Shown: positions 9,248 through 26,650 of the stretch, in pieces
How the letters are laid out: every line of letters begins with the position of its first letter
How positions within the stretch are numbered: position 1 is the first letter of the stretch
NCBI GenBank assembly: GCA_016792685.1
Contig: JAEULQ010000035.1
Location: 1-41,646 of the forward strand
DNA: 41,646 nucleotides
Source of the DNA: Tabrizicola sp.
GTDB taxonomy: Bacteria; Pseudomonadota; Alphaproteobacteria; Rhodobacterales; Rhodobacteraceae
Reading direction: 5' to 3'
Made by a program: the position numbers and the translations under genes
Notes under the pieces: generated by a model
What the model was told of the DNA's origin: nothing
Database searches by the model: none
What the model saw: the letters and a program-made list of their open reading frames with translations, nothing else

Positions 9248-10246
9248 CTATTCCGCCGCCTCGACCCGGACCGGGGCCCGCCGCACACCCTGGGTCAACC
9301 GCCGCTCATCCCGCGGCGAGACGCCGAAAAGTTCCGTATAATGCCGGATCATCGGGCTGGAGGTCATGTAGCCGACCGAGGCCGCGATTTCCCGCAGCGA
9401 GTCGTTTGAATAGAGCACCCGCTGCCGCGCCTTCATCAGCCGCAGGTGATGGTAATAGCGCAAGGGGCTTTGCCCGGTCTCGCGCTTGAACATCCGCTCG
9501 AAATGTCGCCCGGAAATGCCAACCGCGGCCGCGACATCGGGGATGCGCAGCGGGTCCTCGACATGGGTTTCGAAAAGACGGATCGCCTCGCGGATCGCGG
9601 CCGGAAGAGCGTCGGTCGTCCCCCCTGCCCGCGCAACCGGGACCTTCTGGCTGGCATCGGCATCCCGGACGAACGGGTGTTGGAACCAACAGGCGACCTC
9701 GGTCATGCAGTCGCGACCCAGCCGCTCCTCGATCAACCGCAGCATGAGGTCGAACACTGCCCCCGCACCAGAGGCCGTGATCCGCCGCGCCTCGCGCAGG
9801 ATCGTGACCTCTCGTGCCTCGATGCCGGGGAAATCCGCCTTGAAAGCCGCCTCGTAGCACCAATGCACCGAGCACGGTCTCCCTTCCATCAGCCCCGCCC
9901 GGGCAAGGGGAAAGATGCCGCCCGAAAAGGCGCCCAGCGTGACCCCGGTCCGGTCCAGCCAGCGCAACCGCGCCGGGCTGCGTCGCGGGTCGATGAACAC
10001 GGCCGTTGGCGGGGAGAGGAGGTAGAGCTGATCCACCCCCTCCAGCGCTTGCAGCGTCACGTCGGGGTCAAAGCCGATCTCGGCCGAGGATCGTACGGGG
10101 GCGGCAGTTTCCGCGACCAGCGTCCAGACAAACTCCCGCCGCCCGGTGATCTCATTCGCTGCGCGCAAGGGCTCGATTGCCGAGGTCAGACAGGCCATCG
10201 GAAAGCCCGGGAACATCAGGAACCCAAGGCGCAGGGCGGTAGCCAT
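9248..10246 (-). CDS. GlxA-family AraC-type transcriptional regulator (DJ-1/PfpI + AraC HTH)
   Basis: The 332-aa protein has an N-terminal class I glutamine amidotransferase/DJ-1-like sensor domain (about 5-190; LGFLMFPGFPMACLTSAIEPLRAAN, LGAFSGGIFPLARAGLM) and a C-terminal double helix-turn-helix (about 225-315; RIPDVAAAVGISGRHFERMFKRETG, SLREIAASVGYMTSSPMIRHYTELFG). Regulators with this layout commonly control catabolism of quaternary amines, for example GbdR and CdhR. Its ATG overlaps the dmmC stop (TGATG), so it is the last gene of the dmmDABC transcript and probably the local amine-responsive activator. The start at 10246 is preferred over a longer frame for this coupling. Confidence 0.87.
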   Translation of the reverse strand: MATALRLGFLMFPGFPMACLTSAIEPLRAANEITGRREFVWTLVAETAAPVRSSAEIGFDPDVTLQALEGVDQLYLLSPPTAVFIDPRRSPARLRWLDRTGVTLGAFSGGIFPLARAGLMEGRPCSVHWCYEAAFKADFPGIEAREVTILREARRITASGAGAVFDLMLRLIEERLGRDCMTEVACWFQHPFVRDADASQKVPVARAGGTTDALPAAIREAIRLFETHVEDPLRIPDVAAAVGISGRHFERMFKRETGQSPLRYYHHLRLMKARQRVLYSNDSLREIAASVGYMTSSPMIRHYTELFGVSPRDERRLTQGVRRAPVRVEAAE

Positions 10247-11316
10247 CAGTCCTCCGGCCACCAGCCAGGCGAGGTGGGCGCTCCGTCATCGTACTGCGAC
10301 AGCCATTTGGCCATTGCGTCCCGGTTCCGAAGGAAACCCTTGTAAGCCGCAAGATCGGGGTGAAGATCCCGCACCACCCGATGCAGGCGGCGGCCCCACT
10401 TTGGCACCGTCACCAGCTCCTCGAACTTGCCAAGGTAGCAGCGGATGTCAAAGGCGATCGCATTCGACCTGGGCAGACGGTAAAGGGTCTGCAGCTCGAC
10501 CCGCAGATGCATCTTGTGACCCATGTTTTCCTGGGTCAGCGTCGTCCGGTCCGGCCCCCATTTGGGGTAGGTCTCGGGAGCCGTGTCGAGCAGCGGATTG
10601 ACGGTCATCGTCCAGTTGAAGCGCCGGACCGGAGCCCCGTGCTGCAGCTTGAGAAGGAACTTCAGCGCCCGGTCGAAGATACCCTTTTCATGTGCCAACG
10701 GCACCGGAGCGTGCCACTCATGGAAATTCATGCCCACGTCAAAGTCGACCGACCAGTCCGCCTGGCTGGTCGCGATGCCCGCATCCATCCACAGCGTCCC
10801 GTCGCGTTCGTCCTGCAAGGTCCAGTCGCCTTGCGTCTGACGCATGATGTATTCGAACGGCGGATAGGGCAGCGTCGATTCATCCAGGAATGTGAACGAC
10901 TGTTCGATGCCAAGCGGCCGGTTGATCCAATGCCAGCGGTTGCCGTCCTTGGTCAGCGAAAACCACTCCGGATATTCCCGGGCCTTGGTCTCCATGATCA
11001 GTTCCAGCGTATCCCAGCCTGCCAAGGTCATATGCGGCAGCGACTGGCAGCGCAGCGGGTCCTCCGCCAGCACCTTGGCGCGGTCAATCATCTCGGCGAC
11101 GTAGTGCTCGTCCACGTCGAAGGTCTTCTCGAAGACGCTGCCCTTCCGGCCCGGTACATGCGGCTCGAGGTTCACCGCATACATGTACTCGTCGCGGTCG
11201 AACGGAAACGGGAAGCGTCTGATATAATGTGGAGAGTTCCGATAGGTAAAGTCGTCCCGGAAGGTCTCCGTCTTGAAGAAGTCGTTGAAGGCACCTGGGC
11301 GGAAATCAAGGCTCAT
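10246..11316 (-). CDS. dmmC: Dimethylamine monooxygenase subunit DmmC (DUF3445, haem-dependent N-demethylase family)
   Basis: The 356-aa protein is a DUF3445 member, the family of haem-dependent oxidative N-demethylases that accept dimethylamine. It should be the catalytic component that converts dimethylamine to methylamine and formaldehyde using electrons from the adjacent reductase. Recognisable stretches are FRDDFTYRNSPHYIRRFPFPFD at the N-terminus, DGNRWHWINRPLGIEQSFTF and ENMGHKMHLRVELQTLYRLPRS. A GAGGAACC ribosome binding site lies 3-9 nt before the ATG. It follows dmmB by 9 nt and its stop overlaps the regulator start. Subunit letters follow the roseobacter order D-A-B-C, and other naming schemes exist. 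Confidence 0.88.
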   Translation of the reverse strand: MSLDFRPGAFNDFFKTETFRDDFTYRNSPHYIRRFPFPFDRDEYMYAVNLEPHVPGRKGSVFEKTFDVDEHYVAEMIDRAKVLAEDPLRCQSLPHMTLAGWDTLELIMETKAREYPEWFSLTKDGNRWHWINRPLGIEQSFTFLDESTLPYPPFEYIMRQTQGDWTLQDERDGTLWMDAGIATSQADWSVDFDVGMNFHEWHAPVPLAHEKGIFDRALKFLLKLQHGAPVRRFNWTMTVNPLLDTAPETYPKWGPDRTTLTQENMGHKMHLRVELQTLYRLPRSNAIAFDIRCYLGKFEELVTVPKWGRRLHRVVRDLHPDLAAYKGFLRNRDAMAKWLSQYDDGAPTSPGWWPED

Positions 11317-11325
11317 CGGTTCCTC

Positions 11326-12288
11326 CTATCGGTCGATGACGAGGGTCTTGCCCTCGAAGCGGCTGACGCAGGGCATGATCTTCTTGCCCGATGCATGCTC
11401 TTCAGGTGTCAGCCAGTGGTCGCGATGCAGGATCGTGCCGTCGCATTTGTGAACATTCGTTTCGCACTGGCCACAGGCGCCGCCACGACAAAGATAGGGC
11501 GCATCGATACCTGCGGCCTCGATCGCTTCCAGCAGGGACTGCGTCGTGCCCACCGTGATCGTCTTGCCGCTGGCCGCAAGTTCGACCGTGAAGGGCAGGC
11601 CGGTCCCCGGCGCCAGGAACTCCTCATGGTGCAGCGCAAGCTTTGGCCAGCCCATGCGCTCGGCCGTCGAGAGGACCCAGGCGATCATCCCCTTTGGTCC
11701 GCAGACATAGAGGTGCGTGCCAATCGGTTGATTCTTCAGCACTCTTGCCAGGTCGATCTGCTGGCCCTGGTCGTCGTAGTAGCAGTGGACCTGATCCGGG
11801 TGCTCTGCCGTCAGACGGTCCATGTAGGCGCCCAAGGGTTTCGAGCGTGCCGAATAATGCAGTTCGAACCGTCCGCCGAAATGCGCCAGTTGCGAAATCT
11901 GCGCCAGAAATGGCGTGATCCCGATACCGCCCGCGATCATCAGGTGCTTCCGCGCCCGGTTGTCCAGCGGGAAGAGGTTGACCGGATGGCTTATCACCAT
12001 CTCCATACCCGGAGTCACATGGCGATGCATGAAAAGCGAGCCGCCACGACCGACATCGTCCCGACGGACGCTGATCTCATAGCCCGTCCGGTCTTCCGGG
12101 TCGGACATAAGTGAATAAGGGTTCAGTCTGCGCAGCCCGTGATCGTCCATCTCGACGACGGTATGCGCCCCGCCCGAAAAGGCCGGCAAGAGTGACCCGT
12201 CGCGGGATACAAAACGGAACCGCTTGATCAGTTCGTTGACCTCAACGACTTCTGCCACGCGGACCTGAAGCTTCGCGCCGCCACTCAT
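11326..12288 (-). CDS. dmmB: Dimethylamine monooxygenase reductase subunit DmmB (flavin / 2Fe-2S reductase)
   Basis: This 320-aa oxidoreductase is of the phthalate-dioxygenase-reductase type and should pass electrons from NAD(P)H through flavin and a plant-type 2Fe-2S cluster to the haem subunit. Visible elements are a flavin-binding RLNPYSL near 54-60, the nicotinamide-binding GGIGITPFLAQ near 120-130 and VCGPKGM near 195-201, and a C-terminal ferredoxin domain with Cys267, Cys272, Cys275 (CRGGACGQC) and Cys307. The start overlaps the dmmA stop by 4 nt, indicating translational coupling. Confidence 0.9.
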   Translation of the reverse strand: MSGGAKLQVRVAEVVEVNELIKRFRFVSRDGSLLPAFSGGAHTVVEMDDHGLRRLNPYSLMSDPEDRTGYEISVRRDDVGRGGSLFMHRHVTPGMEMVISHPVNLFPLDNRARKHLMIAGGIGITPFLAQISQLAHFGGRFELHYSARSKPLGAYMDRLTAEHPDQVHCYYDDQGQQIDLARVLKNQPIGTHLYVCGPKGMIAWVLSTAERMGWPKLALHHEEFLAPGTGLPFTVELAASGKTITVGTTQSLLEAIEAAGIDAPYLCRGGACGQCETNVHKCDGTILHRDHWLTPEEHASGKKIMPCVSRFEGKTLVIDR

Positions 12289-12911
12289 TTGAACCTCACT
12301 ACGCTTTCCGGCACTTTGCCCGGGTCCTCGGCATCGATGTTCACACCCTGAAAGGCTGCGATCCGGCGGGAATAATGATCCCGGACAAAGAGGTTAAGCC
12401 CGCAGTGGCTGCATTTGAACGGGTCGGTCGCCACGTTTTCGGTGATCCCCTTGCAATGCACGCACTGCACCCGGCGCAGGGTCGATCCCCGGTGTTCCTT
12501 CTGGATCGCGGCATGGGGGAAACCCGTTGCCATGATCTCGCGTTCGGCCTGGCCAATCAGGCTCTCGGTGCCCGCCAGATAGAACTGCGTACCCATGTGG
12601 GCGTCGAGCAGCACCCGTTGCAGCCGCGGCAGGAGCGACGGAATGGTCGGCGCGCGGAAGAACTGCGACGCCTGCAAGCCCTCCAGCGCGCTTGTCTTGT
12701 CCGTCCCGTTCGGCCCGGGAACATACATCACATGCGCTGCTGACAAGATTTCCGAACGATCGTTCGCTTTGGCCAGCATCTCGACCACTGCATCGGCACC
12801 TTCACCGTCAGCGACGATCACATATCGACTGGCTGAACGGGCCTCAAGCGGGGCATAGACGGGTCGGCTTCGGATAGAGGGCGCATCAACGGGGGTAAGA
12901 CTTATCTTCAC
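12285..12911 (-). CDS. dmmA: Dimethylamine monooxygenase subunit DmmA
   Basis: The 208-aa protein starts at GTG (12911) with AAGGA upstream. It has a Rossmann-like middle section (YVIVADGEGADAVVEML, LSAAHVMYVPG, QFYLAGTESLIGQAEREI) and a C-terminal zinc-ribbon-like motif formed by Cys150/Cys153 and Cys167/Cys170 (CVHC and CSHC). The DmmA family is required with DmmB and DmmC for dimethylamine oxidation, but its precise role, either electron transfer or assembly, is not obvious from sequence. The gene is separated from dmmD by a 55-nt gap holding a strong stem-loop, and overlaps dmmB by 4 nt. Confidence 0.85.
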   Translation of the reverse strand: MKISLTPVDAPSIRSRPVYAPLEARSASRYVIVADGEGADAVVEMLAKANDRSEILSAAHVMYVPGPNGTDKTSALEGLQASQFFRAPTIPSLLPRLQRVLLDAHMGTQFYLAGTESLIGQAEREIMATGFPHAAIQKEHRGSTLRRVQCVHCKGITENVATDPFKCSHCGLNLFVRDHYSRRIAAFQGVNIDAEDPGKVPESVVRFK

Positions 12912-12931
12912 GGGTCCAATTCCTTAAGCAA

Positions 12932-12955
12932 GGGGCCCGCACAGGCGCGGGCCCC
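12932..12955 (-). other. Intercistronic stem-loop between dmmD and dmmA
   Basis: Perfect 9-bp GC-only arms GGGGCCCGC and GCGGGCCCC surround a 6-nt loop. No T-tract follows on the minus strand, so it is not a classic intrinsic terminator. It may set a processing or stability boundary, or partial attenuation, between dmmD and dmmABC. Confidence 0.6.
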
Positions 12956-12966
12956 GCAATTCTGCT

Positions 12967-14103
12967 TCAATCCTTGGCGGTACGGCGCTTCTTCTCGACG
13001 TCGTAGAAGGGCAGCGAATGCGACACAGCCTTCAAGGGACCATGCGTCCCGCAGCGCACTTCGACCTCGGTGCCGTTGTTGGCGTACTCGACCGGCATAC
13101 GGGCAATCGCCACGACCCAATCGTTCAGCGGCGAATACATCGGCTGCGTCACGACACCGATCTTCTTGCCGTCCTTGTAGATCGGGGCGTTGCCGGGGAC
13201 CTTCTTGCCCTCGAACTTCAAGCCCGAGATCTTGAACCGCTCCTTGCCCTGCAAACGGTAATGCTCTTCGGCGCCACGGAAGCCAGTCTTGCCCTTGGTC
13301 ACGGTCCAGTCCAGACCCAGCTCCCACAGGGTATCCCCCGGCCCTTCGTTTTCGAACGGATACATCTCGGAATTGTCGAAGGGGAAGAACAGCAGGTAGC
13401 TTTCTGCCCGCAGCATATCCAGCGTCGTGAAGCGGCAGGGGATGATCCCCATGCTCGCGCCCTCTTCCAGGATGCGGTCCCAGATCTCCACCGCGTCCTG
13501 ACCCCGGCAGAAGATTTCATACCCACGCTCGCCGGTATAGCCGGTCCGCGACAGGGTGATGGGCTTGCCGAACAGCATCGCGGGCATGTGGCCCATATAG
13601 GGCAGCGCGCGAACGCCCGGAATGTGCTTTTCCAGATAGGTCACGGCCAGCGGCCCCTGCAGCGACAGGTCGTGCAGGTTGTCGTCAAAGCGGATCGACA
13701 CATCGCGCCCGGTTGCGGCCATGGTCAACTGCTCGTGCCCCTGACCCGACCCATGCACCACGGTGTAGGAGTTCGGCCCCATCCGGTAGATGATGCAATC
13801 GTCGATGAACTTGCCTGCGTCGTTCAGCATGCAGGCATAAAGCGATTTGCCGGGCGCGATCTTTTCCGGGTCCCGCGTCGTGGCACGGTCGATCACATGG
13901 CTGGCGGCATGGCCGGTGATGTGGACCTTCTTCAGGCCTGACACATCCATCAGCCCGGCCTTGGTGCGGATCGCCATGTATTCGGCATTCGCATCGCCCT
14001 TGGAATAGGACCAGGCGGTCCCCATCCCGCTCCAGTCTTCAAGGTTCGAACCGAGCGCGCGGTGGCGGTCCATCAGTGCGGAAAAACGCCAGGAGTTGGT
14101 CAT
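12967..14103 (-). CDS. dmmD: GcvT-like tetrahydrofolate-dependent protein DmmD of the dimethylamine monooxygenase operon
   Basis: The 378-aa aminomethyltransferase-family protein probably captures the formaldehyde equivalent released from dimethylamine as 5,10-methylene-tetrahydrofolate. The N-terminal part reads MTNSWRFSALMDRHRALGSNLEDWSG, followed by folate-domain motifs (AGLMDVSGLKKVHITG, LSRTGYTGERGYEIFC) and a C-terminal barrel (GVVTQPMYSPLNDWVVAIARMP). The start at 14103 is chosen for GGGAG seven bases upstream. It heads the operon dmmD-A-B-C-regulator on the minus strand. It is homologous in fold to the C-terminal part of Tdm, so the island has two such folate modules. Confidence 0.86.
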   Translation of the reverse strand: MTNSWRFSALMDRHRALGSNLEDWSGMGTAWSYSKGDANAEYMAIRTKAGLMDVSGLKKVHITGHAASHVIDRATTRDPEKIAPGKSLYACMLNDAGKFIDDCIIYRMGPNSYTVVHGSGQGHEQLTMAATGRDVSIRFDDNLHDLSLQGPLAVTYLEKHIPGVRALPYMGHMPAMLFGKPITLSRTGYTGERGYEIFCRGQDAVEIWDRILEEGASMGIIPCRFTTLDMLRAESYLLFFPFDNSEMYPFENEGPGDTLWELGLDWTVTKGKTGFRGAEEHYRLQGKERFKISGLKFEGKKVPGNAPIYKDGKKIGVVTQPMYSPLNDWVVAIARMPVEYANNGTEVEVRCGTHGPLKAVSHSLPFYDVEKKRRTAKD

Positions 14104-14149
14104 CTGCAGTCTCCCTGATTGGTAGTTTCTTTGCGCCAAGTGTCAGGCG

Positions 14150-14261: not shown

Positions 14262-16025
14262 TTAGGCTGGCAGGACGAAGAACCAGTTCGACCAGAGTAC
14301 GACCACCGCTCCGGCCGCCAAAGCCAGATAGGGCAGCATCCCCGCCTTCCTCGCACCCCGTTCGCCATAAGGCAGACCAAGGTCGTCATAGGCCTCTTTC
14401 GGGAACTTTCCACCGTCCTGGACATAGTGCCGGAACCAGAACACCGGAACGATCAGCGCCGCGAAGACCAGACCCGACCAGAGCGCGTTCTCATAGCCCC
14501 AGACCTTTGCGCCCGCGCCGAGGAACAGGGCGTTGACGAAGGCAAGAACCGTGTTCACCCCGATCAGCCAGGTCGGCGCTTTCCAGGGACGCTCCATGTG
14601 GGAACTGTCGATGCGGTGGATCCAGCCGGCGTTCAGGTTCAGGAAGTTGAACAGGATGTAGCCGACGTTGGAAATCGCCAGGACGTAGAAGTAGCCGGCG
14701 ATGTCCGAGGCCAGGGCCAGGAGGAACACGTTGAAGGCAAAGTCCGTCCACATCGCCTTGCGCGGCGCGCCATGCGTGTTGACCGAGCCGAGGTACTTCG
14801 GCAGCCAGCCATCGCGCGAGCCCTGGTAGAGCGTGCGCGACGATCCCGCCATTGCCGTCATGATGGCCAGGAACAGCGCCATGATCATCAGGATCACGAA
14901 GATCTGGGTGATCACTGCCCCGCCGCCGATCATGTTGCCAAGCGCCTCGCCGATACCCGAGCCGTCAACGATGCCCGAGGCGAGCATGCCTTCCTGCCCG
15001 AGCACGCCCTGGAAAGAGAACGGGATCAGGAAGAAGAACAGGCAGCAGAGGAGGCCCGAGTAGAAGATGGCCCGGAACGTATCGGTCTTCGGATCCTTGA
15101 GCTCGCGGGTATAGCAGACCGCGGTTTCAAAGCCGTAGGTCGACCAGGCCGCAATGTAGAGACCACCAAGGAAAAGCGTCCAACCGCCGATGTTCCATTC
15201 TCCGTCGACACCCGAATAGGCGGCCGTCGGCGGCACCAGGTTGGTGACGTTCATCCAGTTGATCGACCCGTTGAAGAGCGGCACCAGACCAACCAGCAGC
15301 AGCGGAACAAGCACGATGATCGCCAGCCACTTCTGCGCCGCGGCCGTCGAGGCGATGCCGCGTTCCTGGATCAAGAGGATGACCAGCATCAGCGCCACGC
15401 CGACCACGAAGTAGGAGTTGAAGTGCAGCGTCCCGAGGAGCGGGATCGTGACAGCAGCAAACTCCCAGTTGCGGAAGGCGGGGGTCAGGGCTGCGATGCC
15501 GTCAGCGGTGGCCACGGCCTTGATCGCATCCTCGGCAGCAGTCCCCGCGTTCGCGGCCATGTAGTCGATGACCGACTGCGTCTCCGCCGTATAGCTCGCA
15601 AGGTTGGCCGCCACCCAGTCCACGACCTGCTGGCTTTCGGCCAGGGGGATCGGGAACAGCGCGTTCAGGATGTAGCCCGCCGCGATCACGCAGCCAAGCG
15701 ACAGCACCGGCGACCAGGCGAACCAGTTGCACCAGACCGACAGCGGCGCGATCAGCTTGGAGTAGCGCAGCCATGCGGTCGCGCCATAGACGGACGTTCC
15801 GCCCGACTTGTTGCCGAACATCCCGGCCATTTCGGCATAGGTAAAGCTTTGCAGAAAGCCCATGATCATCGAGATGATCCAGACCACGAAGGCAAGCTTC
15901 CCCGTCGTCCCGGCAATCCCGCCGATCGAGAAAAGCACCAGAGGCGGCACACCGGCCGCGACCCAGAAGGCGCCTTTCCAACTCAGCGCACGGACCATTT
16001 GGCCCGATCCAGTTTCAGTCGTCAT
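14262..16025 (-). CDS. APC-superfamily permease adjacent to tmm, with an inserted hydrophilic loop
   Basis: The 587-aa membrane protein has about 12-14 hydrophobic helices and resembles amino acid/polyamine/organocation permeases (FWVAAGVPPLVLFSIGGIAGTTG in helix 1, YTRELKDPKTDTFRAIFYSG after the central helices, SRTLYQGSRDGWLPKYLGSVNTHGAPRKA). Residues about 128-190 form an unusual Ala-rich hydrophilic insertion with two similar segments (VVDWVAANLASYT and VIDYMAANAGTAA). The start at 16025 is chosen because GGAGAGAGGGA precedes it. Placed between tmm and dmmDABC, it is a candidate importer of a methylated amine or TMAO, filling the place of the absent TmoXWV system. That role is inference. 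Confidence 0.8.
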   Translation of the reverse strand: MTTETGSGQMVRALSWKGAFWVAAGVPPLVLFSIGGIAGTTGKLAFVVWIISMIMGFLQSFTYAEMAGMFGNKSGGTSVYGATAWLRYSKLIAPLSVWCNWFAWSPVLSLGCVIAAGYILNALFPIPLAESQQVVDWVAANLASYTAETQSVIDYMAANAGTAAEDAIKAVATADGIAALTPAFRNWEFAAVTIPLLGTLHFNSYFVVGVALMLVILLIQERGIASTAAAQKWLAIIVLVPLLLVGLVPLFNGSINWMNVTNLVPPTAAYSGVDGEWNIGGWTLFLGGLYIAAWSTYGFETAVCYTRELKDPKTDTFRAIFYSGLLCCLFFFLIPFSFQGVLGQEGMLASGIVDGSGIGEALGNMIGGGAVITQIFVILMIMALFLAIMTAMAGSSRTLYQGSRDGWLPKYLGSVNTHGAPRKAMWTDFAFNVFLLALASDIAGYFYVLAISNVGYILFNFLNLNAGWIHRIDSSHMERPWKAPTWLIGVNTVLAFVNALFLGAGAKVWGYENALWSGLVFAALIVPVFWFRHYVQDGGKFPKEAYDDLGLPYGERGARKAGMLPYLALAAGAVVVLWSNWFFVLPA

Positions 16026-16358
16026 TCCCTCTCTCCTGTCAGACGGCGAGACCGGCACTTGGGCAATTCTTGGCGCTTGCCCTTCCCTCCGGTTCGCCTT
16101 GTTGGGTCTTCGCAGCGGACATGTGCGTGCTTTGTCAGGTCGCAGTCTTCTCCTTTGTCCGGTCCAGAATCGCTCCGCATCTTGTCAGCGGCCGCGACCT
16201 GTTGTCGTGAAAGAAAGCACGCGCGCACATCCAAGGCGAGAAAAAATTGATCCACGCGAAAGTTTGTTTCCCGGAGGTCACATCGGTCACGCTTCCGGGT
16301 GCCCAAAAAGCGTGCGGCGCCGTAACCGGCGCCGAACTGGTCGTCTTGTGGAAGGCGC
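16026..16358 (-). other. Intergenic region between tmm and the permease
   Basis: These 333 nt have no credible gene. They contain the tmm terminator at the upper end, a short GGGAAA element (16267-16278, minus strand) and presumably the permease promoter. I could not identify a convincing -10/-35 pair. No RNA gene was recognised. Confidence 0.55.
16303..16333 (-). terminator. Intrinsic terminator after tmm
   Basis: GGCGCCG and CGGCGCC arms (16316-16333) surround TAAC, and a run of five T follows on the minus strand after GCACGC. It lies 25 nt after the tmm stop, separating tmm from the permease transcript. Confidence 0.78.
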
Positions 16359-17702
16359 TCAGTTGCGCAGATAGCTTTCCATCGAATCCTCAAGCGCGTC
16401 TTTCCACGGTGTGTGGTGAAGCGGCGCCATCGTCCCCGTGATGACCGATTTGTAGGCATTGTCACGGAACTTCATGATGTCCTTCTTCTTGTGGTCCTTC
16501 CACTCGAAGAAGGCCTCGCAGGCCCCGTCCACGTCGAAGGACGGATAGTCGGTCTCGGCGATCAGCTCTTTCACGTAATCGCCCTGATAGTGGATCGCGT
16601 CGTGGGCGTCCTTGCCCTCGTCCTCGTGCTTCACGCGGTCCTCGACGTCCTTCAGCAGCACTTTCTTGTCGGTCGGAATCGCGATTCTTCCCATGATCGC
16701 ATCACGCACCCACCAGGCCTGCGCGTCGAACATGTTGAAGGTGAACCACTGGTCCTGCATGCCGAGGTAGAAGAGCTTGGGGTTATGCACCCAGACCACA
16801 CCCTTGTAGAGGTCCGCCGTCGCCAGCCGGTTTGCCGTCTTCAGCCGCAGGTCATCCGGCAGGAAGGGGAAATGGTGCTTGTAGCCGGTGCACAGGATGA
16901 TCGCGTCGATCTTCTTTGACGTCCCGTCGCCGAAATATGCAGTGTTCTCGTCCACCCGGACAAGCCCCTGCTTTTCCTCCCAGTTGGACGGCCAGTTGAA
17001 GCCCATCGGCGCCCGGCGATAGGTCGAGGTGATCGACTTTGCCCCGTATTTCCAGCACTGCGATCCCACATCCTCGGCCGAGTAGGACGTCCCCATGATC
17101 AACAGGTCCTTGCCGGTGAACTCGCGCGCGTCGCGGAAGTCGTGGGCGTGAAGCACACGCCCGTTGAACTTCGAGAATCCTTCGTACTCCGGCACGTTCG
17201 GAACGCTGAAATGGCCGCTCGCGACGATGACGTTGTCGAACTCCTCGTCATACATCCGGTCCGCCTCCAGATCATGCGCGGTGACCGTGAAGTTGCCTTT
17301 GGCCTCGTTGTACTTGACCATCCGGATCGTGGTCGAGAAGCGGATCCAGTCGCGCACGCCGGCCTTCTTCACCCGGCCTTCGATATAGTCGAACAGCACC
17401 GCGCGGGGCGGGTAGCTGCCGATCTGCTTGCCGAAATGCTCCTCGAAGGAATAGTCGGCGAATTCCAGCCCTTCCTTCGGCCCGTTCGACCAGAGGTAGC
17501 GGTACATCGAGCAGTGCACCGGCTCGCCATGTTCATCCAGGCCCGTACGCCAGGTGTAGTTCCAAAGGCCACCCCAGTCGGACTGCTTTTCAAAGCAGAC
17601 AACCTCGGGGATATCCGCGCCCTTTGCCTTGGCTGACTGGAACGCCCGCAGCTGTGCCAGACCCGATGGACCCGCACCGATCACCGCGACTCTCTTTTTC
17701 AT
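16359..17702 (-). CDS. tmm: Trimethylamine monooxygenase Tmm (flavin-containing monooxygenase)
   Basis: Tmm oxidises trimethylamine to TMAO with NADPH, FAD and O2. The 447-aa length matches bacterial Tmm. The start at 17702 is set by GGAGG six to seven bases upstream. It has the FAD Rossmann motif GAGPSG (9-14), the FMO signature F-x-G-x3-H-x3-F as [11 protein letters not shown], the NADP-binding region [14 protein letters not shown] with the Tyr typical of Tmm, and [11 protein letters not shown] near the second dinucleotide site. [11 protein letters not shown] and [17 protein letters not shown] are also typical. Bacterial FMOs of this group can also oxidise dimethylsulfide and indole. Dedicated amine use is supported by tdm, dmm, gmaS and mgs nearby. 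Confidence 0.94.
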
Positions 17703-17748
17703 CTTCAACCTCCGGATGTTGGATTCGTTGTGCTTTGGGCGCACTGGT

Positions 17749-18864: not shown

Positions 18865-20172
18865 TCAGATATCCAGCGTTGTCTGCGTCTCCCAGGCCGA
18901 GAAATGCGAACAGTAGTCGTTCCATTCCTTGTGCTTCAGCTTCAGATAGGCCGAGGAGAACTCATCCCCCATCATCGCCTTCAGCGTCTTGTCCTTGTCA
19001 TACTCGCGCAGCGCATCCAACAGGTTCAGCGGCAGCTTCGGCGCGTTCTTCACCGTATGCCCCATCTGGTACATGTCGATATCATAACGCTTGCCAGGAT
19101 CGGCCTTGGTACGAACCCCGTCCAAACCAGCCGCGATGATCACTGCCTGAAGGAGATACGGGTTCGCCGCACCATCGGGCAGGCGGAGTTCAAACCGCCC
19201 CGGCCCGGGTACGCGGACCATGTGGGTGCGGTTGTTGCCCGTCCAGGTCACCGTGTTCGGCGCCCAGGTCGCGCCCGAAGAGGTCCGGGGGGCATTGATC
19301 CGCTTGTAGCTGTTCACCGTCGGGTTGCAGATCGCCGCCAGCGCCGAGGCGTGTTTCATGATCCCGCCCAGGAAGTTCCGTCCCCGGTCCGAAAGACCCA
19401 GCTCGGCTTTCTTGTCGGCGAAGGCGTTGGTCTTGCCATCCAGCGACCAGACCGAGATATGCGCGTGGCAGCCCGACCCCGTCAGCCCCTTGAACGGCTT
19501 CGGCATGAAAGTCGCGCGGAAGCCGTGCTTTTCAGCCACCGACTTGACCATGAACTTGAAGAAGCTGTGCTTGTCCGCCGTCTGCAGCACGTCGTCATAC
19601 TTCCAGTTCATCTCGAACTGGCCGATCGCGTCTTCGTGGTCGTTCTGGTAGGGCTCCCAGCCCATCTCCAGCATGTAGTCGCAGATTTCCGAGATCACGT
19701 CATAGCGCCGCATCACCGCCTGCTGGTCGTAGCAGGGCTTTTCGGCGGTATCGAAGATGTCCGAAGCTCCCGTGCCTTCTGCGTTCAGGATGAAGAACTC
19801 GGGCTCGACCCCGGTCTTGACCCGCAGCCCATCCTTCGCGGCCTCGGCGATCAGTTTTTCCAGCACGTTGCGCGGTGCCTGGTCGACAAGCTTTTCCTCC
19901 ATCGTCGCCCGCGCCGCGACCCAGGCCACATCCTTCTTCCACGGAAGCTGGATCGCGCTGTCCGGGTCCGGCACCGCCATCAGGTCGGGGTGCGCCGGCG
20001 TCAGGTCCAGCCAGGTGGCAAAGCCCGCAAAGCCCGCACCTTCCACCGCCATGTCGTTGATCGCCTGCGTCGGCACCAGTTTCGCGCGCTGCCCACCGAA
20101 GAGATCGGTGTAGGAGATCATGAAATACTTGACGCCCTTATCCTTCGCCCATTTGGCAAGGTCTTTCGCCAT
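18865..20172 (-). CDS. gmaS: Gamma-glutamylmethylamide synthetase GmaS (glutamine synthetase family)
   Basis: GmaS ligates methylamine to glutamate with ATP, giving gamma-glutamylmethylamide, the entry step of the indirect methylamine pathway. The 435-aa protein has the glutamine synthetase layout: an N-terminal beta-grasp (about 1-105; KYFMISYTDLFGGQRAKLVP) and a catalytic domain with EPEFFIL, NDHEDAIGQFEMNW, GSGCHAHISVW and NRTHMVRVPGPGRFELRLPDGAANPYL. The start at 20172 is chosen for GGGAG upstream and homologous length. It is the last gene of mgsABC-gmaS. True glutamine synthetase activity is unlikely given the linkage with mgsABC. Confidence 0.92.
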   Translation of the reverse strand: MAKDLAKWAKDKGVKYFMISYTDLFGGQRAKLVPTQAINDMAVEGAGFAGFATWLDLTPAHPDLMAVPDPDSAIQLPWKKDVAWVAARATMEEKLVDQAPRNVLEKLIAEAAKDGLRVKTGVEPEFFILNAEGTGASDIFDTAEKPCYDQQAVMRRYDVISEICDYMLEMGWEPYQNDHEDAIGQFEMNWKYDDVLQTADKHSFFKFMVKSVAEKHGFRATFMPKPFKGLTGSGCHAHISVWSLDGKTNAFADKKAELGLSDRGRNFLGGIMKHASALAAICNPTVNSYKRINAPRTSSGATWAPNTVTWTGNNRTHMVRVPGPGRFELRLPDGAANPYLLQAVIIAAGLDGVRTKADPGKRYDIDMYQMGHTVKNAPKLPLNLLDALREYDKDKTLKAMMGDEFSSAYLKLKHKEWNDYCSHFSAWETQTTLDI

Positions 20173-20223: not shown

Positions 20224-21552
20224 TTACCAGCCGCCGTTCCGTCCCGGTATCCAGTTGGTGCCCGCCAGCGGAACCCCCGCCATCGCCGCCGCCTCGATGG
20301 TCAGCGAGCACAGGTCCTCGGGCTCCAGGTTGTGCAGGTGGTTCTTGCCGCAGGCCCGCGCGATGGTCTGCGCCTCCAGCGTCATCACCTTGAGATAGTT
20401 CTTCAGCCGCCGCCCGCCGAGGACCGGATCGAAGCGCTTGAAAAGCTCCGGGTCCTGGGTGGTGATCCCGGCCGGGTCGCGGCCTTCGTGCCAGTCGTCA
20501 TAGGCATCCGCCGTGGTGCCGAGCTTCTGGTATTCCTCTTCCCATTTCGGGTCGTTGTCGCCGAGCGCGATCAGCGCCGCCGTCCCGATGGCCACGGCAT
20601 CCGCGCCCAGGGCCATCGCCTTGGCCACATCCGCGCCGCTGCGAATACCGCCCGAGACGATCAGCTGCACCTTGCGGTGCATGCCAAGGTCCTGCAGCGC
20701 CTTCACCGCCTGCGGGATGCAAGCCAGGATCGGCATGCCGACATGTTCGATGAAAACATCCTGCGTCGCCGCCGTGCCGCCCTGCATGCCGTCGACCACG
20801 ACGACGTCCGCCCCGGCCTTCACCGCCAGCGCCGTGTCATAATAGGGCCGCGCACCGCCGACCTTCACATAGATCGGCTTTTCCCAATCGGTGATCTCGC
20901 GGAGCTCATGGATCTTGATCTCCAGATCATCCGGGCCGGTCCAGTCCGGATGCCGGCAGGCCGAGCGCTGGTCGATCCCCTTTGGCAGGTTCCGCATGTT
21001 GGCCACGCGATCGCTGATCTTCTGACCCAGAAGCATCCCGCCGCCGCCGGGCTTCGCGCCCTGGCCCACAACCACCTCGATCGCATCGGCGCGACGCAGG
21101 TCGTCGGGGTTCATGCCATAGCGGCTGGGCAGATACTGATAGACCAGCGTCTTGGAATGCCCACGCTCTTCCTCGGTCATGCCGCCGTCGCCGGTCGTCG
21201 TCGACGTCCCGGCCGCCGTGGCCCCGCGCCCCAGGGCCTCCTTGGCCGGACCGGACAGAGCGCCAAAGCTCATGCCGGCGATGGTGATCGGGATATCCAG
21301 ATGGATCGGCTTCTTCGCGTGCCGCGTTCCAAGCCAGACATCCGTCGCGCATTTCTCGCGATAGCCTTCCAGCGGATAGCGGCTGATCGAGGCGCCCAGG
21401 AACAGCAAGTCATCGAAGTGCGGCAGGTGCCGCTTCGTGCCGCCGCCGCGGATGTCGTAGATGCCAGAGGCAGCCGCGCGGCGGATTTCGGCGTTCACTG
21501 CCGGGGTGAAGGTCGCCGAGAAGCGGGGCGGGGTACGTGGAAGGTCGGTCAT
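20224..21552 (-). CDS. mgsC: N-methylglutamate synthase subunit C (glutamate synthase FMN-domain-like)
   Basis: The 442-aa protein corresponds to the FMN-binding synthase domain of glutamate synthase and should be the catalytic core that forms N-methylglutamate from gamma-glutamylmethylamide. Signatures include ITIAGMSFGALSGPAKEALGRGA, STTTGDGGMTEEERGHSKTLVYQ, QGAKPGGGGMLLGQKIS, YVKVGGARPYYDTALAVKAGADVV with GMQGGTAATQ, and VSGGIRSGADVAKAMALGADAVAIGTAA. The start at 21552 has GAGG upstream and follows the mgsB stop by 7 nt. It lies between mgsB and gmaS. Confidence 0.92.
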   Translation of the reverse strand: MTDLPRTPPRFSATFTPAVNAEIRRAAASGIYDIRGGGTKRHLPHFDDLLFLGASISRYPLEGYREKCATDVWLGTRHAKKPIHLDIPITIAGMSFGALSGPAKEALGRGATAAGTSTTTGDGGMTEEERGHSKTLVYQYLPSRYGMNPDDLRRADAIEVVVGQGAKPGGGGMLLGQKISDRVANMRNLPKGIDQRSACRHPDWTGPDDLEIKIHELREITDWEKPIYVKVGGARPYYDTALAVKAGADVVVVDGMQGGTAATQDVFIEHVGMPILACIPQAVKALQDLGMHRKVQLIVSGGIRSGADVAKAMALGADAVAIGTAALIALGDNDPKWEEEYQKLGTTADAYDDWHEGRDPAGITTQDPELFKRFDPVLGGRRLKNYLKVMTLEAQTIARACGKNHLHNLEPEDLCSLTIEAAAMAGVPLAGTNWIPGRNGGW

Positions 21553-21559
21553 TGCTGCC

Positions 21560-22249
21560 TCAGTACGACGACGCGTTGTCGATGTTGAAATTGTACAGTT
21601 TCCGGGCCGAGCCATAACGGCGGAACTCTTCCGGCTTGGCCTTGTGATCGGCCTCACCCCTGCGCAGCAGCTCTTCCAGGATCGCGTAGTGTTCGTCCCG
21701 CATCTCTTTCTCGATGCAGTCTGCCCCCAGCGATTTCACCGTGCCGCGCACGAAAAGCCGCGCTTCGTAGAGCGAGTCGCCCAGCGCCTCACCAGCGTTG
21801 CCCAGCACGACAAGGTTGCCGGACTGCGCCATGAAGGCCGACATGTGGCCGATGTTGCCGTGCACCACGATGTCGATGCCCTTCATCGAGATGCCGCAGC
21901 GGCTGGAGGCATTGCCCTTGATGACCAGAAGTCCCCCGCGCCCCGTCGCGCCTGCATATTGGCTGGCGTCGCCGTCGATGATGACCGTCCCGCTCATCAT
22001 GTTCTCGGCTACGCCGGGGCCAGCCGATCCCTTGATGCGGATCGTCGCCTGCTTGTTCATGCCGGCACAGTAATAGCCCGTCGAACCCCGGACCGTGATG
22101 TCGACCGGGGCGTCCACCCCGGCGGCGATGGCATGCGCACCTTTGGGGTTGATCACCTCCCAGGCGGTCATGTTGGTCTGGCCCTTCAGGGCGTGCAGCG
22201 AGGAGTTCAGGGCGCGCAGGCCCTCTTTCCCCAGGTCGAAGCTCTGCAT
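21560..22249 (-). CDS. mgsB: N-methylglutamate synthase subunit B (GXGXG beta-helix domain)
   Basis: The 229-aa protein corresponds to the C-terminal GXGXG right-handed beta-helix domain of glutamate synthase, a structural part of the MgsABC complex. Repeating beta-helix rungs are visible: DITVRGSTGYYCAGMNKQATIRIKGSAG, VIIDGDASQYAGATGRGGLLVIKGNAS, IDIVVHGNIGHM and NLVVLGNAGEALGDSLYEARLFVRG. The start at 22249 gives MQSFDLGKEGLRALN; a longer upstream frame overlaps mgsA and is not used. The start is 4 nt after the mgsA stop. Confidence 0.91.
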   Translation of the reverse strand: MQSFDLGKEGLRALNSSLHALKGQTNMTAWEVINPKGAHAIAAGVDAPVDITVRGSTGYYCAGMNKQATIRIKGSAGPGVAENMMSGTVIIDGDASQYAGATGRGGLLVIKGNASSRCGISMKGIDIVVHGNIGHMSAFMAQSGNLVVLGNAGEALGDSLYEARLFVRGTVKSLGADCIEKEMRDEHYAILEELLRRGEADHKAKPEEFRRYGSARKLYNFNIDNASSY

Positions 22250-23374: not shown

Positions 23375-23662
23375 GTGGGAGACCTTAATCAGCGGATTGA
23401 GGCGATGCACAAACGCGACGTGCAAGTGGCATGGGCGTTCGTGGTCGGCCTCTGGTTTGCGGTGATCTTTGTCGCCATCGCCACCTGGAACCTGGCACCA
23501 AGCGGAGGGGCAAGGACCCTTCTTCTTGTTGGCGGGGCGATCGTCCTGATCTTCAACACCGCCGCGATCCTGGCGATGCTGCGGCATTACCGCGAGGACC
23601 GCGACTTCATGTACGGCCTCGACATCAAGTTTCTTGACGAAGCCAAGGGCAGGAAGGGTTGA
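23375..23662 (+). CDS. Small two-helix membrane protein, first gene of the APC permease operon
   Basis: The 95-aa protein starts at GTG (23375) with GGGAGGG just upstream. Two hydrophobic segments are predicted, about 18-38 (WAFVVGLWFAVIFVAIATW) and 48-68 (TLLLVGGAIVLIFNTAAILAM), then a charged C-terminal tail of about 27 residues. It matches no family I recognise. The stop lies 2 nt before the next start, and four genes run without gaps into an APC permease, so it is probably an accessory subunit or stability factor of that transporter. This is inference from operon structure. Confidence 0.75.
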   Translation: MGDLNQRIEAMHKRDVQVAWAFVVGLWFAVIFVAIATWNLAPSGGARTLLLVGGAIVLIFNTAAILAMLRHYREDRDFMYGLDIKFLDEAKGRKG

Positions 23663-23664
23663 GC

Positions 23665-24045
23665 ATGGCACATTACGATCCCCCGAAGCAGGGCAAGGCC
23701 AGCCAACTGATCGACGTTGTCGTCCTTGTCGTCCTGACAGTCGGCGCGCTGTTCGTGCCGCTTTGGCTTGGCATGGCCGGCGCGGCAAAATCCGTCGCCA
23801 CCCCGGTCGAGAACCCGACCTGGGAGGCGCTTGGCCAGACCCCGGCCCAGGCAGCAAAATATGAGGCCCTGGGCTACGACCCGGCCTCGGCCCATGACCT
23901 GATCCTGGCGCGCTTCGACTACAGCTTCTCGTTCGGTGCGCTGCTGACCATGATCGCGGTCATCCTGCTCTATTACTTCCTGATCCTGCGGTTCTCCGAA
24001 GTGGAGTATCGCGAGGTCATCTCCGAAAAATTCGGCGACAAATAG
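23665..24045 (+). CDS. Small two-helix membrane protein, second gene of the APC permease operon
   Basis: The start at ATG 23665 is preferred to the in-frame TTG at 23659 because AGGAAGGG is 7 nt upstream, giving 126 aa. Hydrophobic segments lie at about 15-38 and 87-108, separated by a soluble stretch of about 48 residues (VATPVENPTWEALGQTPAQ and following) likely on the periplasmic side, then an acidic and basic tail (EVEYREVISEKFGDK). No known domain is recognised. The size and topology suggest a dedicated accessory subunit. The downstream 57-aa gene starts 9 nt later. Confidence 0.75.
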   Translation: MAHYDPPKQGKASQLIDVVVLVVLTVGALFVPLWLGMAGAAKSVATPVENPTWEALGQTPAQAAKYEALGYDPASAHDLILARFDYSFSFGALLTMIAVILLYYFLILRFSEVEYREVISEKFGDK

Positions 24046-24054
24046 GGGGCCGCA

Positions 24055-24228
24055 ATGGATCTGTGGAACTGGCTTGAATACGCGGCCTGGGCGCTGTCAG
24101 TGGCCTTTGGCCTGCACATGCTGCTCGACTGGTTGAAAACCGACAGCAGCTATTCGGAAGACGTCCTGACCTCCTCGCGCGAAGGCGAGCTTGAGGCGAT
24201 GGCGGAAGAGCACAAGGTGAAATCATGA
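24055..24228 (+). CDS. 57-aa single-helix membrane protein, third gene of the APC permease operon
   Basis: A 57-codon gene starts at ATG 24055 with AGGGGGC upstream and ends by overlapping the permease start by 4 nt (ATGA). One hydrophobic segment spans about 5-25 (NWLEYAAWALSVAFGLHMLL), followed by an acidic, soluble tail (EDVLTSSREGELEAMAEEH). It has the same codon use as its neighbours and a good ribosome binding site, so I consider it a real gene. Its coupling to the permease recalls small subunits such as KdpF-type peptides or CydX, although no sequence relation is claimed. Confidence 0.72.
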   Translation: MDLWNWLEYAAWALSVAFGLHMLLDWLKTDSSYSEDVLTSSREGELEAMAEEHKVKS

Positions 24229-25661
24229 CCGATGTCGACATCACCTCGAAAACCATGGACGGCATGGGGCCGCATGGCACCAAGGTCGGCCTCTTGCGGG
24301 TCCTTGGCCCGGCGCATGTCTGGGCGCTTGGCGTCGGCATCGTTCTGGTCGGCGAATACATGGGCTGGAACTTTGCCGTCGGCAAAGGCGGCGCCTATGC
24401 CGCGCTGATCGCCTGCTGGTTTGCGGGCATCCTCTACACCTGCGTCGCCATGATCGACTCGGAGGTCACTTCGACCGTCGCCTCGGCTGGCGGGCAGTAT
24501 ACTCAGGCCAAGCACATCGTCGGGCCGCTCATGGCCTTCAACGTCGGCCTCTATCTCGTCTTCGCCTACACGATGCTGGAAGCGGCCAACGCGATCACGG
24601 CGGGGTACCTCTTCTCGGTCGTGGCGACGATGTCGGGGCACGAGGCGGCGCTGGACCAGCGGCCCTTCATCATCCTGGTCATCATGTTCCTCGCCTGGCT
24701 GAACTATCGGGGCGTGCTGGCGACACTGACCTTCAACCTCGTCATCACAGCCATTGCCTTCGTCGCGATCCTTGTCCTGTTCCTGGCGACCTCCGGTGTG
24801 GTCGGCGGCGGGATCATGGAACATGCCGCCCTCTTCGAAGGCCATGAGATGCCCTATGGCTGGATCGGCGTCCTTGCAGCCATGCACTTCGGCCTTTGGT
24901 ACTACCTTGGGATCGAGGGCACGACCCAGGCTGCCGAAGAGGTACGCTCCCCTGCCCGCGCCCTGCCCTTCGGCACGCTGGCCGGGATCATGACGCTGCT
25001 CATTGCTGCCACCCTCACCTGGTATGTCTGCTCCGGTGCCCTGCCGTGGGAATTCCTTGGCGATGGGGTCAACGGTTCGGTCGCGCCGCTCTTCGACACC
25101 GCACGGCTGTCGGGATCGAACGCGCTGATCTGGCTTCTGGGCATTGGCACGCTCTTCGCAACGCTCGCCAGCGCCAACGGCTGCATCAACGACGCAAGCC
25201 GCGCCTGGTTCGCGATGGGCCGCGACAAGTACCTGCCGGGCTGGTTCGGCGCGGTGCATCCCAAGTACCGCACCCCCTATCGGGCGATCGTGTTCCTTGT
25301 CCCGATCGCGCTGATCTTCGCCCTTGGCGCGCCTCTGGACCAGGTGATCACCTTCTCGATCCTGTCGGGTCTCCTCGGCTATACCTTCATGCCGCTGAAC
25401 ATCATCATGTTCCGGAAGAAGTGGCCGTTGAACTCGATCAAGCGCGGCTATGAACATCCGTTCCACCCGCTGCCTGCCATCACGCTGCTGACGCTGTGCG
25501 CCGTGACCTTCTTTGCGGTCTTCCTGGGCTACGGCACCCAGCTTGTGGCGATGATCGGCTTCTACATCGTCGTGTCGCTCTGGTTCCACTTCTGGCGCTA
25601 CCGCTTCGTGAACCGGGGGGCACAGTTCACCATGCCCTGGCCGAAACCGCAGGGCTACTAA
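24225..25661 (+). CDS. APC-superfamily permease (ethanolamine-permease-like), last gene of the operon
   Basis: The 478-aa protein has about 12 hydrophobic helices. Helix 1 reads LGPAHVWALGVGIVLVGEYMGWNFAVGKGG, close to the ethanolamine/amine permease group of the APC superfamily, with GIEGTTQAAEEVRSPARALPFG in the helix 6 region, SANGCINDASRAWFAMGRDKYLPGWFGAVHPKYRTPYRA in helix 8-9, and a cytoplasmic end FTMPWPKPQGY. It is divergent from mgsABC-gmaS, so methylamine, dimethylamine or a related organic cation is the likeliest substrate. The three tiny membrane genes ahead of it are unusual for this family. Confidence 0.85.
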   Translation: MTDVDITSKTMDGMGPHGTKVGLLRVLGPAHVWALGVGIVLVGEYMGWNFAVGKGGAYAALIACWFAGILYTCVAMIDSEVTSTVASAGGQYTQAKHIVGPLMAFNVGLYLVFAYTMLEAANAITAGYLFSVVATMSGHEAALDQRPFIILVIMFLAWLNYRGVLATLTFNLVITAIAFVAILVLFLATSGVVGGGIMEHAALFEGHEMPYGWIGVLAAMHFGLWYYLGIEGTTQAAEEVRSPARALPFGTLAGIMTLLIAATLTWYVCSGALPWEFLGDGVNGSVAPLFDTARLSGSNALIWLLGIGTLFATLASANGCINDASRAWFAMGRDKYLPGWFGAVHPKYRTPYRAIVFLVPIALIFALGAPLDQVITFSILSGLLGYTFMPLNIIMFRKKWPLNSIKRGYEHPFHPLPAITLLTLCAVTFFAVFLGYGTQLVAMIGFYIVVSLWFHFWRYRFVNRGAQFTMPWPKPQGY

Positions 25662-25668
25662 GGCAAGT

Positions 25669-25696
25669 GGCCCGCCCCTCGGGGCGGGCCTTTTCC
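25669..25696 (+). terminator. Strong intrinsic terminator of the APC permease operon
   Basis: 10-bp arms GGCCCGCCCC and GGGGCGGGCC are separated by two bases, effectively a 9-bp stem with a tetraloop, followed by TTTT. It starts 7 nt after the permease stop. The next predicted gene begins only 2 nt after this element. Confidence 0.85.
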
Positions 25697-25697
25697 A

Positions 25698-26375
25698 ATG
25701 TCCCCACTCATTCCCCTCGGTGCAGCCCTCGCCGCCATCGGCCTTTGGCTGGGCTTTCGTCTCGTGGCCGAGGCCCGCGCCCGCACGACAGCCCGCGCAC
25801 GCTATTTCGACACGGTTCGGCAGCTCTTCGATGGTGGAGAAATCCGCATCCAGCCGACCGGCTTCCCGCGCATGACCGGCCACAGGGCAGATCTCGCCTA
25901 CGACCTGCAGGTCGTCCCGGACACACTCACCTTCCGTAAGCTTCCAGCGCTCTGGGTCCTTGTCACCCTGCCCGAGCCCCTGCCCGTCGCCGCCACACTC
26001 GACCTTCTCGCCCGGCCCTCCGGGAATGAGCCCTTCACCCGTTTTGCCACCCTGCCGCAGTCACTGCCCACGCCCGCCGGCCTGCCAAAGGACATCGCAA
26101 TCCGCAGCGAAGACGCCAGCCGCATCCCGCCCGCTACGCTGATCGAGCGGCACGCCGACCTGTTCGATGATCCGCGCATCAAGGAACTGGTGATCTCGCC
26201 CAAGGGTCTGCGGATCGTCCTTCTGGCGGAAGAGGCAGACCGGGGCCGCTACCTCATCTTCCGCGAGGCCGAGATGGGCATGGCCCCCCTCGCCTCCGAC
26301 CGATTGATACCGGTGCTCGACAGGCTGAAAGCCTTGCGCGAAGATATCCTTGCCCTGCCGAAAGACCCCGGATGA
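25698..26375 (+). CDS. Membrane-anchored protein of unknown function
   Basis: The 225-aa predicted protein has one N-terminal hydrophobic segment (about 3-22, LIPLGAALAAIGLWLGFRLV) and a soluble remainder with a predicted mixed alpha/beta pattern (ADLAYDLQVVPDTLTFRKLPALWVLVTL, IKELVISPKGLRIVLLAEE). I recognise no family. The first ATG at 25698 lies right after the terminator T-run and has no ribosome binding site. It may be leaderless, translated from read-through, or mis-started, although a later start would remove the membrane anchor. Its stop overlaps the next gene by 4 nt. Confidence 0.6.
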   Translation: MSPLIPLGAALAAIGLWLGFRLVAEARARTTARARYFDTVRQLFDGGEIRIQPTGFPRMTGHRADLAYDLQVVPDTLTFRKLPALWVLVTLPEPLPVAATLDLLARPSGNEPFTRFATLPQSLPTPAGLPKDIAIRSEDASRIPPATLIERHADLFDDPRIKELVISPKGLRIVLLAEEADRGRYLIFREAEMGMAPLASDRLIPVLDRLKALREDILALPKDPG

Positions 26376-26650
26376 AACCGCCCCTGAACCCCTATCTCGT
26401 CCTCGCCGTTGCCGTATGTCTGCCAGGTATGGGCCAGGTCCTGAACCGCCAGCCTGTGCGCGGGCTGATCTTCGTCTGTTTCGCGGTGCTTCTTGGCGGG
26501 TTCACGCTGAAGACGGCCGCGCCGGATGTGTCCTTTGTCGGCAAGCTTTCCGGCGCGCTCTTTGTCTGGGCCATGGCGGTCTTCGACGCCTACAAGCTGG
26601 CCCGAATCCGTTACGCGGTCTGGCAGCATCAGTCCAAAACGCCTCGCTGA
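26372..26650 (+). CDS. Small TM2-like membrane protein
   Basis: A 92-aa protein has two to three hydrophobic stretches (about 7-22, 30-48 and 57-74). The segment CLPGMGQVLNRQPVRGLIFVCF resembles the G-x-G-x-x-Y/L...G signature of small TM2-domain or related membrane proteins. Its function is unknown. It is coupled to the preceding gene by an ATGA overlap and converges on the next minus-strand gene. Confidence 0.65.
   Translation: MKPPLNPYLVLAVAVCLPGMGQVLNRQPVRGLIFVCFAVLLGGFTLKTAAPDVSFVGKLSGALFVWAMAVFDAYKLARIRYAVWQHQSKTPR

Follow-up and report, generated by a model that had tools for sequence, protein, structure and literature searches.

Why would a secondary transporter be encoded directly behind three very small membrane-protein genes? 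This question is raised by a stretch of 41,646 nucleotides from Tabrizicola sp. (assembly GCA_016792685.1, contig JAEULQ010000035.1, positions 1 to 41,646; the whole stretch is called the window below), in which the genes S1, S2 and S3 precede an APC-family permease. The initial annotation had proposed a multi-subunit permease for methylamine or a related cation, an interpretation that is partly supported here. The preferred reading, given a probability of about 60% on the basis of comparative sequence analysis, is that these genes open a six-gene cassette encoding a methylamine importer that resembles ethanolamine permeases, together with accessory proteins dedicated to it. The APC protein would be the transport subunit and bring small protonated amines into the cell to feed the N-methylglutamate pathway, methylamine (methylammonium) being the most likely substrate. 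The cassette consists of the following elements.

23375-23662, plus strand: S1, 95 amino acids, GTG start, two predicted transmembrane (TM) helices
23665-24045, plus strand: S2, 126 amino acids, two TM helices around a helical loop
24055-24228, plus strand: S3, 57 amino acids, one weakly predicted TM helix
24225-25661, plus strand: APC permease (AA_permease_2, PF13520), related to ethanolamine permeases
25669-25694, plus strand: GC-rich hairpin plus four T, between the permease and o25698
25698-26375, plus strand: o25698, 225 amino acids, N-terminal hydrophobic stretch plus soluble domain, fifth cassette gene
26372-26650, plus strand: o26372, 92 amino acids, small membrane protein, sixth cassette gene

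The first four genes are as tightly packed as originally described: S1 and S2 are 2 nt apart, S2 and S3 9 nt, and S3 overlaps the permease gene in an ATGA. The corresponding median spacings across 109-110 loci, near-duplicates included, are 2, 9 and 4 nt. In comparison with 11 relatives, S1, S2, S3 and the permease all show more changes at third codon positions than elsewhere in the codon, the pattern expected when protein-coding genes are under selection. A chance run of small open reading frames is ruled out by this bias together with the conservation.

The small genes are linked to one kind of permease. In the family survey, the permease (E up to 1e-60) occurs in 8 of 198 genomes and S1-S3 lie upstream of it in all eight, S1 being cut by the contig start in one. 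A scan of named-species genomes gave 288 related stretches, and among the best 80, which were kept, S1, S2 and S3 stand upstream of the permease in 78; the two exceptions, L023 (lacking S1 only) and L029 (lacking all three), both lie at a contig start. Searching in the other direction, the S1 profile matches 10 of 292 order genomes and 14 of 398 phylum genomes, 23 distinct genomes in all (some genomes are shared between surveys), and S2, S3 and the permease adjoin S1 in the same order in 23 of 23, so that S1 homologues stand beside the permease and not mainly away from it. This linkage survey was run from the S1 profile, and the S3 profile of the neighbour check was built from hits in the same loci. 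The permease is also found on 22 plasmid records; S1-S3 were recognised by profile in 12 of the 13 that were fetched, and the thirteenth, L230, has three small hypothetical genes of matching size.

Related permeases outside the cassette provide the control. TIGR00908, the ethanolamine permease model, has matches in 40 of 200 phylum genomes, and 30 of these loci were fetched. All eight that score above 700 bits to the cassette permease profile carry S1-S3; the other 22, at 58 to 142 bits, gave no hit to S1, S2 or S3 (0/22) at E up to 10 in 1.5-kb flanks. The boundary between cassette and non-cassette permeases is sharp, and the partners are strictly linked to the transporter (S1 23/23; outgroups 0/22), as in a multi-subunit secondary transporter. 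The cassette is shared between genera, between families and by at least two classes; its presence in other families and in Betaproteobacteria rules out an oddity of Rhodobacteraceae. Cultured methylotrophs carry it as well, namely Paracoccus aminophilus on pAMI6 and Aminobacter niigataensis MD1 on plasmid paAMD1.

Two loci show altered frames. In Sinorhizobium meliloti Ak57 (L129, 9391-11359, one of the 12 plasmid loci), S2 and S3 open into neighbouring frames: S3 and the permease form one open frame and S2 has no stop of its own. A natural S3-permease fusion as proof of contact was discounted, because the S2 stop is also absent in Ak57, and the genes are separate in the three other Sinorhizobium loci inspected, L224, L225 and L226. 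In Rhizobium sp. RCAM05350 (L227, 5494-7393), the permease is split over two frames and the small genes are intact.

The permease scores 117.5 bits against PF13520 (gathering score 27, E 9.5e-34), which places it in the APC family; at E up to 1 its Pfam matches are limited to PF13520 and PF00324, without PF00909. Against TIGR00908 it reaches 181.5 bits, short of the curated cut-off of 381.75 for an ethanolamine permease equivalog. A tree of 48 rows places the 25 cassette permeases in a single clade, set off by a long branch (support 100/100), whereas the 16 over-cut-off ethanolamine permeases, with three others, form a second clade (95/86), outside which the cassette rows fall. A tmoP-like row sits on a very long branch that makes its placement meaningless. 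Ethanolamine permeases are nevertheless the nearest group and share a TM1 motif with the cassette permease (GIVLVGEYMGWN in the cassette permease, GLVISGEYFGWS in ethanolamine permeases), including an acidic residue present in 25 of 25 cassette rows and 15 of 16 ethanolamine-permease rows. This acidic motif fits an amine substrate without a carboxylate and may be a sign of a small cationic substrate. None of the 16 over-cut-off ethanolamine permease loci has S1-S3 within 1.5 kb (0/16).

The link to methylamine is genome-wide. The pathway marker mgsC is present in 14 of 14 cassette genomes of the phylum sample, against 30 of 384 others (Fisher p 5e-15), and the association persists when counted by genus (7/7 vs 24/206, p 7e-7). 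All 23 surveyed cassette genomes have mgsC, nine of them beyond the phylum sample (including G191, G010 and G332), and 10 of 10 from the order survey are among the 23; in the family sample the counts are 7 of 8 cassette genomes and 53 of 190 others (p 0.001). With the exception of G814 and the incomplete G021, the cassette thus co-occurs with mgsC in the manner of N-methylglutamate accessory genes, which bears out the suspected tie to methylamine. Of the 46 loci flanked by at least 9 kb on each side, 36 contain mgsA, mgsC and gmaS, and 37 contain one or more methylated-amine genes. Where no mgs gene stands beside the cassette (20 genomes, for some of which the contig simply ends), mgsC lies elsewhere in 19, and in at least five (G576, G628, G735, G823 and G824) it is on the cassette contig at a distance of roughly 8 to 20 kb. 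Of these 20 genomes, five are already counted in the 23, and another two, G811 and G823, are apparently identical to G320 and G010.

In the window, the rest of the gene cluster around the four-gene start of the cassette is a methylated-amine locus. Its features are given below; the names tmm, dmm and mgs were assigned by similarity and context, after the gene sets described in PMC5520151 and PMC4543880.

22254-23150, minus strand: mgsA, N-methylglutamate synthase subunit A, divergent neighbour of the cassette
21560-22249, minus strand: mgsB, with a GXGXG match; the start codon is our choice
20224-21552, minus strand: mgsC, marker of the N-methylglutamate pathway
18865-20172, minus strand: gmaS, 656 bits to TIGR03105 (type III glutamate-ammonia ligase family); the start is our choice, the longest frame running from 20208
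16359-17744: trimethylamine-monooxygenase-like FMO
14262-16058, minus strand: second AA_permease_2 protein, 598 amino acids, adjoining the tmm-like FMO
10246-14139: GcvT-like, DmmA-like, ferredoxin-reductase-like and HODM_asu-like proteins, matching the dimethylamine monooxygenase set
9248-10261: AraC regulator

By context, gmaS is taken as gamma-glutamylmethylamide synthetase. The divergence from mgsABC-gmaS seen in the window is general: mgsA was found in 59 of 80 loci (L010-L089), and in all 59 it points away from the cassette, with less than 2 kb between its start and that of the permease. The cassette also adjoins mgsABC-gmaS on pAMI6, whose copy of these pathway genes is described in PMC4543880; the gene numbers and permease terms looked for are absent from the main text of that paper.

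The second AA_permease_2 protein (14262-16058) is very different from the cassette permease. By context it is a candidate trimethylamine N-oxide permease, for which the name tmoP is available (PMC4543880, PMC5520151), and 18 of the 46 well-flanked loci have a relative close to the cassette. A 'BCCT' label for it was dropped, as it is an AA_permease_2 protein.

If the cassette imports methylamine, how does it relate to the carriers of the Amt type? To our knowledge, methylamine uptake has been little studied outside these carriers. The comparison set 18 cassette genomes against 20 that have mgsC but no cassette, chosen mostly from the top of a list of 53 such genomes in the family; some contigs on either side were too short to show an Amt neighbour. 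An Amt gene is found no more than 10 kb from mgsC in 10 of the 20 cassette-free genomes against 1 of the 18 cassette genomes (p 0.003), and a low-scoring Amt (up to about 205 bits, a line of our choosing) occurs anywhere in 12 of 20 against 3 of 18 (p 0.007). Since Amt near mgsC is rarer in cassette genomes, the cassette looks like an alternative to a pathway-linked Amt. The Amt of methylamine gene clusters likely does the same job with an unrelated protein family (PF00909). A regular-expression result of no Amt in 137 sequences (136 loci plus the window) was rejected, as the motif was at fault: a Pfam search found Amt genes in 38 of the 38 genomes given. The low-scoring subtype (about 170-200 bits to PF00909) stands beside mgsC in several genomes and beside tmm/dmm in G332 and G784, and is likely a dedicated methylammonium channel.

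What could the small proteins contribute? Two hydrophobic stretches stand out clearly in S1 and likewise in S2, as expected of the membrane proteins first proposed, whereas S3 has no stretch above 1.6 on the Kyte-Doolittle scale, so its single helix is weakly supported. The invariant residues are R7, D15, W27, N61, H71 and Y72 in S1, and Q9, Q14, D17, P32 and Y103 in S2. The charged C-terminal tails (HYREDRDFMYGLDIKFLD in S1, SEvEYREVISEKF in S2, YSEDVLTSSREGELE in S3) are among the most conserved parts of the three proteins. Overall identities fall to 32% for S1, 35% for S2 and 33% for S3, while cassette permeases are 63-93% identical to that of the window (23 rows). S1 is probably an N-in/C-in hairpin with an invariant Asn in its second helix; by the positive-inside rule, the loop of S2 would be periplasmic and the tails of S1-S3 cytoplasmic. 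The AlphaFold2 model of S2 (mean predicted local distance difference test score, pLDDT, 77) shows the loop as a helical pair (block pLDDT 85 to 93) and has no fold match in the PDB at E up to 0.001.

No confident known family was found for the small proteins, in line with the first description. Profiles of S1, S2 and S3 have no convincing PDB sequence match. Pfam scans of their alignments gave scattered matches without a confident family (best E 0.002, 0.007 and 0.01), the best NCBIfam match of the S2 alignment was 0.00094 in one member, and the window copies of S1-S3 and o25698 have no NCBIfam match above cut-off. DUF485, DUF4212 and DUF3311, which we take to be small partners of SSS symporters, do not appear in the Pfam families listed, at E up to 0.1, for 27 members of S1, 34 of S2 and 25 of S3.

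Downstream, the initial annotation had closed the operon at a strong terminator after the permease. The four genes stand as given, but the unit is longer: o25698 and o26372 follow the permease in 79 of 80 loci (the exception, L027, ends 150 nt past the permease) and in 11 of 12 far loci (L117 ends shortly past it), which makes the cassette a six-gene unit, S1-S2-S3-APC-o25698-o26372. The permease and o25698 are separated by a median of 55 nt, whereas the median gap from o25698 to o26372 is -4 nt. The supposed terminator is a GC stem-loop at 25669-25690 followed by four T at 25691-25694 (RNAfold -24.9 kcal/mol), which a simple terminator scan did not list. Because o25698 starts at 25698 and occurs with o26372 in nearly every relative, the unit does not stop there. 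A strong hairpin beginning GGCCCG lies 3' of the permease in 10 of 15 gaps inspected; L119 has a different strong hairpin, the folded gaps of L114 and L115 have none of the GGCCCG type, and the gaps of L122 (13 nt) and L120 (505 nt, holding a universal-stress-protein gene) were left unfolded. The element is probably a partial terminator or mRNA-stabilising structure, which would let the first four genes be produced in excess.

The o25698 alignment matches no Pfam family at E up to 0.01. o26372 carries the motif PGxGQVLNRQPxRGL and weakly resembles DUF5683 (10 of 22 members, best E 5.1e-5); its window copy lacks this match and its alignment has none in NCBIfam. Both proteins are likely assembly or control factors. 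Universal stress protein (usp) genes occur inside or directly upstream of the cassette in L120 (5258-5692), L084 (8424-8882) and L130 (8370-8783). These loci lie away from methylamine genes, and usp is possibly a seventh partner.

Known systems provide some precedent. The best PDB sequence match of the cassette permease is GkApcT (5OQT/6F34, E 3e-19), an APC transporter reported with the small single-TM protein MgtS packed on TM5 (PMC5803215). MgtS is an E. coli protein found with the Geobacillus transporter, not an operon partner, and is a single partner compared with three to five here. In Pseudomonas, the small membrane hairpin CbrX is described as translationally coupled to CbrA and co-purifying with its SLC5-type transporter domain (PMC13022988); that domain is fused to a histidine kinase, and CbrX is the one small partner and dispensable for growth. 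The germinant receptors GerA/GerI combine an APC-like B subunit with A and C subunits and, in some, a small D subunit, according to PMC13170314. They differ in being spore receptors with partners of other types, and the cassette permease matches PF13520 and PF00324 only. The tie of S1-S3 to the permease holds, but in view of such assemblies the novelty first claimed for a dedicated small-protein set was overstated (PMC13170314, PMC13022988, PMC5803215). The cassette would belong to a known kind, secondary transporters with accessory subunits, but with an unusually large dedicated set. A prior description of the cassette was not found in the open-licence full text of PubMed Central, subscription journals lying beyond that scope. 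For Methyloversatilis, induction of amino-acid permeases on methylamine is reported (PMC5023235); they do not appear in section 3.1 or Table 3 of that paper, and no tie to the cassette is made.

Within the preferred reading, S1, S2 and S3 would be membrane proteins dedicated to assisting the permease, their synthesis being matched to its own through close gene coupling. With two, two and one predicted helices and charged tails, they most likely pack on the permease and stabilise or gate it. Polar invariant residues in the helices, strict co-occurrence and near-zero spacing favour such a subunit role. A stronger form of this idea, an obligate multi-subunit transporter in which the permease needs S1-S3 (perhaps also o25698 and o26372) to import methylammonium at low concentration and which evolved as an alternative to a pathway-linked Amt, is tentative and stands at about one chance in three.

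Several observations weigh against the importer reading. Co-conservation is no proof of a complex, since CbrX binds CbrA and yet is dispensable for growth (PMC13022988). S3 is weakly hydrophobic. The permease model is poor (mean pLDDT 56), so no claim about a binding site or interface is based on it. One ethanolamine permease, L142, lacks the acidic TM1 residue, and the motif is therefore not a strict mark of amine substrates. Nine of the 46 well-flanked loci have no methylated-amine gene nearby, which makes the cassette an autonomous unit that could serve a broader substrate. In the phylum sample, 30 of 44 mgsC genomes lack the cassette, which is thus optional. Conversely, two of the cassette genomes tested, and only these, are without mgsC: Paracoccus sp. 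IB05 (L079, G814; no match at E up to 1e-80) and G021 of the family sample (79% complete). G191 carries both the cassette and a pathway-linked Amt, which rules out mutual exclusion and leaves an anti-correlation. Finally, the genome searches scored part of the first-look candidates in most genomes, so misses are possible, and the co-occurrence counts are corrected for relatedness by the genus count only.

An unlikely alternative is that the permease imports methylamine alone and S1-S3 are co-expressed regulatory or quality-control proteins (translational coupling, turnover, signalling) and not subunits. The gene data are equally compatible with it; the coupled CbrXA hairpin is dispensable for growth (PMC13022988), and GkApcT without MgtS is reported to keep a similar initial rate with lower total transport (PMC5803215). 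Direct contact is nevertheless the better fit to invariant residues in three separate proteins and to the occurrence of S1 beside one permease clade only.

More doubtful is a different function: transport of another small amine or osmolyte (ethanolamine, dimethylamine, trimethylamine or a betaine-like compound) or amine export, the pathway link then being an indirect result of a methylated-amine lifestyle. The kinship with ethanolamine permeases, the loci without amine genes nearby (9/46) and those in which the cassette adjoins tmm, dmm or the second APC gene would all suit this. Against it, mgsC is present in 23 of 23 surveyed cassette genomes, while dmm and tmm are present in 20 of 23 each. 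As G367 and G735 have neither, monomethylamine, not dimethylamine or trimethylamine, is the substrate usable by all surveyed cassette genomes. In Pararhizobium qamdonense (L228, 5470-6822), the gene ahead of the cassette is glutamine-synthetase-like, with only about 26% identity to gmaS, a hint at other gamma-glutamylated amines as substrates.

Least probable is a sensor (transceptor) in which the APC protein detects an amine and the small proteins relay it onwards, along the lines of germinant receptors or CbrA. In its favour, ligand binding in multi-subunit germinant receptors is attributed to the APC-fold B subunits (PMC13170314), the tails of S1-S3 are highly conserved and usp genes adjoin or interrupt the cassette in L084, L120 and L130. 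Against it, Pfam and NCBIfam scans recognised no kinase or other known output domain in the cassette, which tends to be present in genomes that lack a pathway-linked Amt, as would be expected of a transporter.

The cassette offers a testable candidate for methylamine import in cultured methylotrophs and points to a possible role for five protein families that lack a confident annotation. Should the small proteins prove to be true subunits, such an architecture would be unusual among APC-family transporters.

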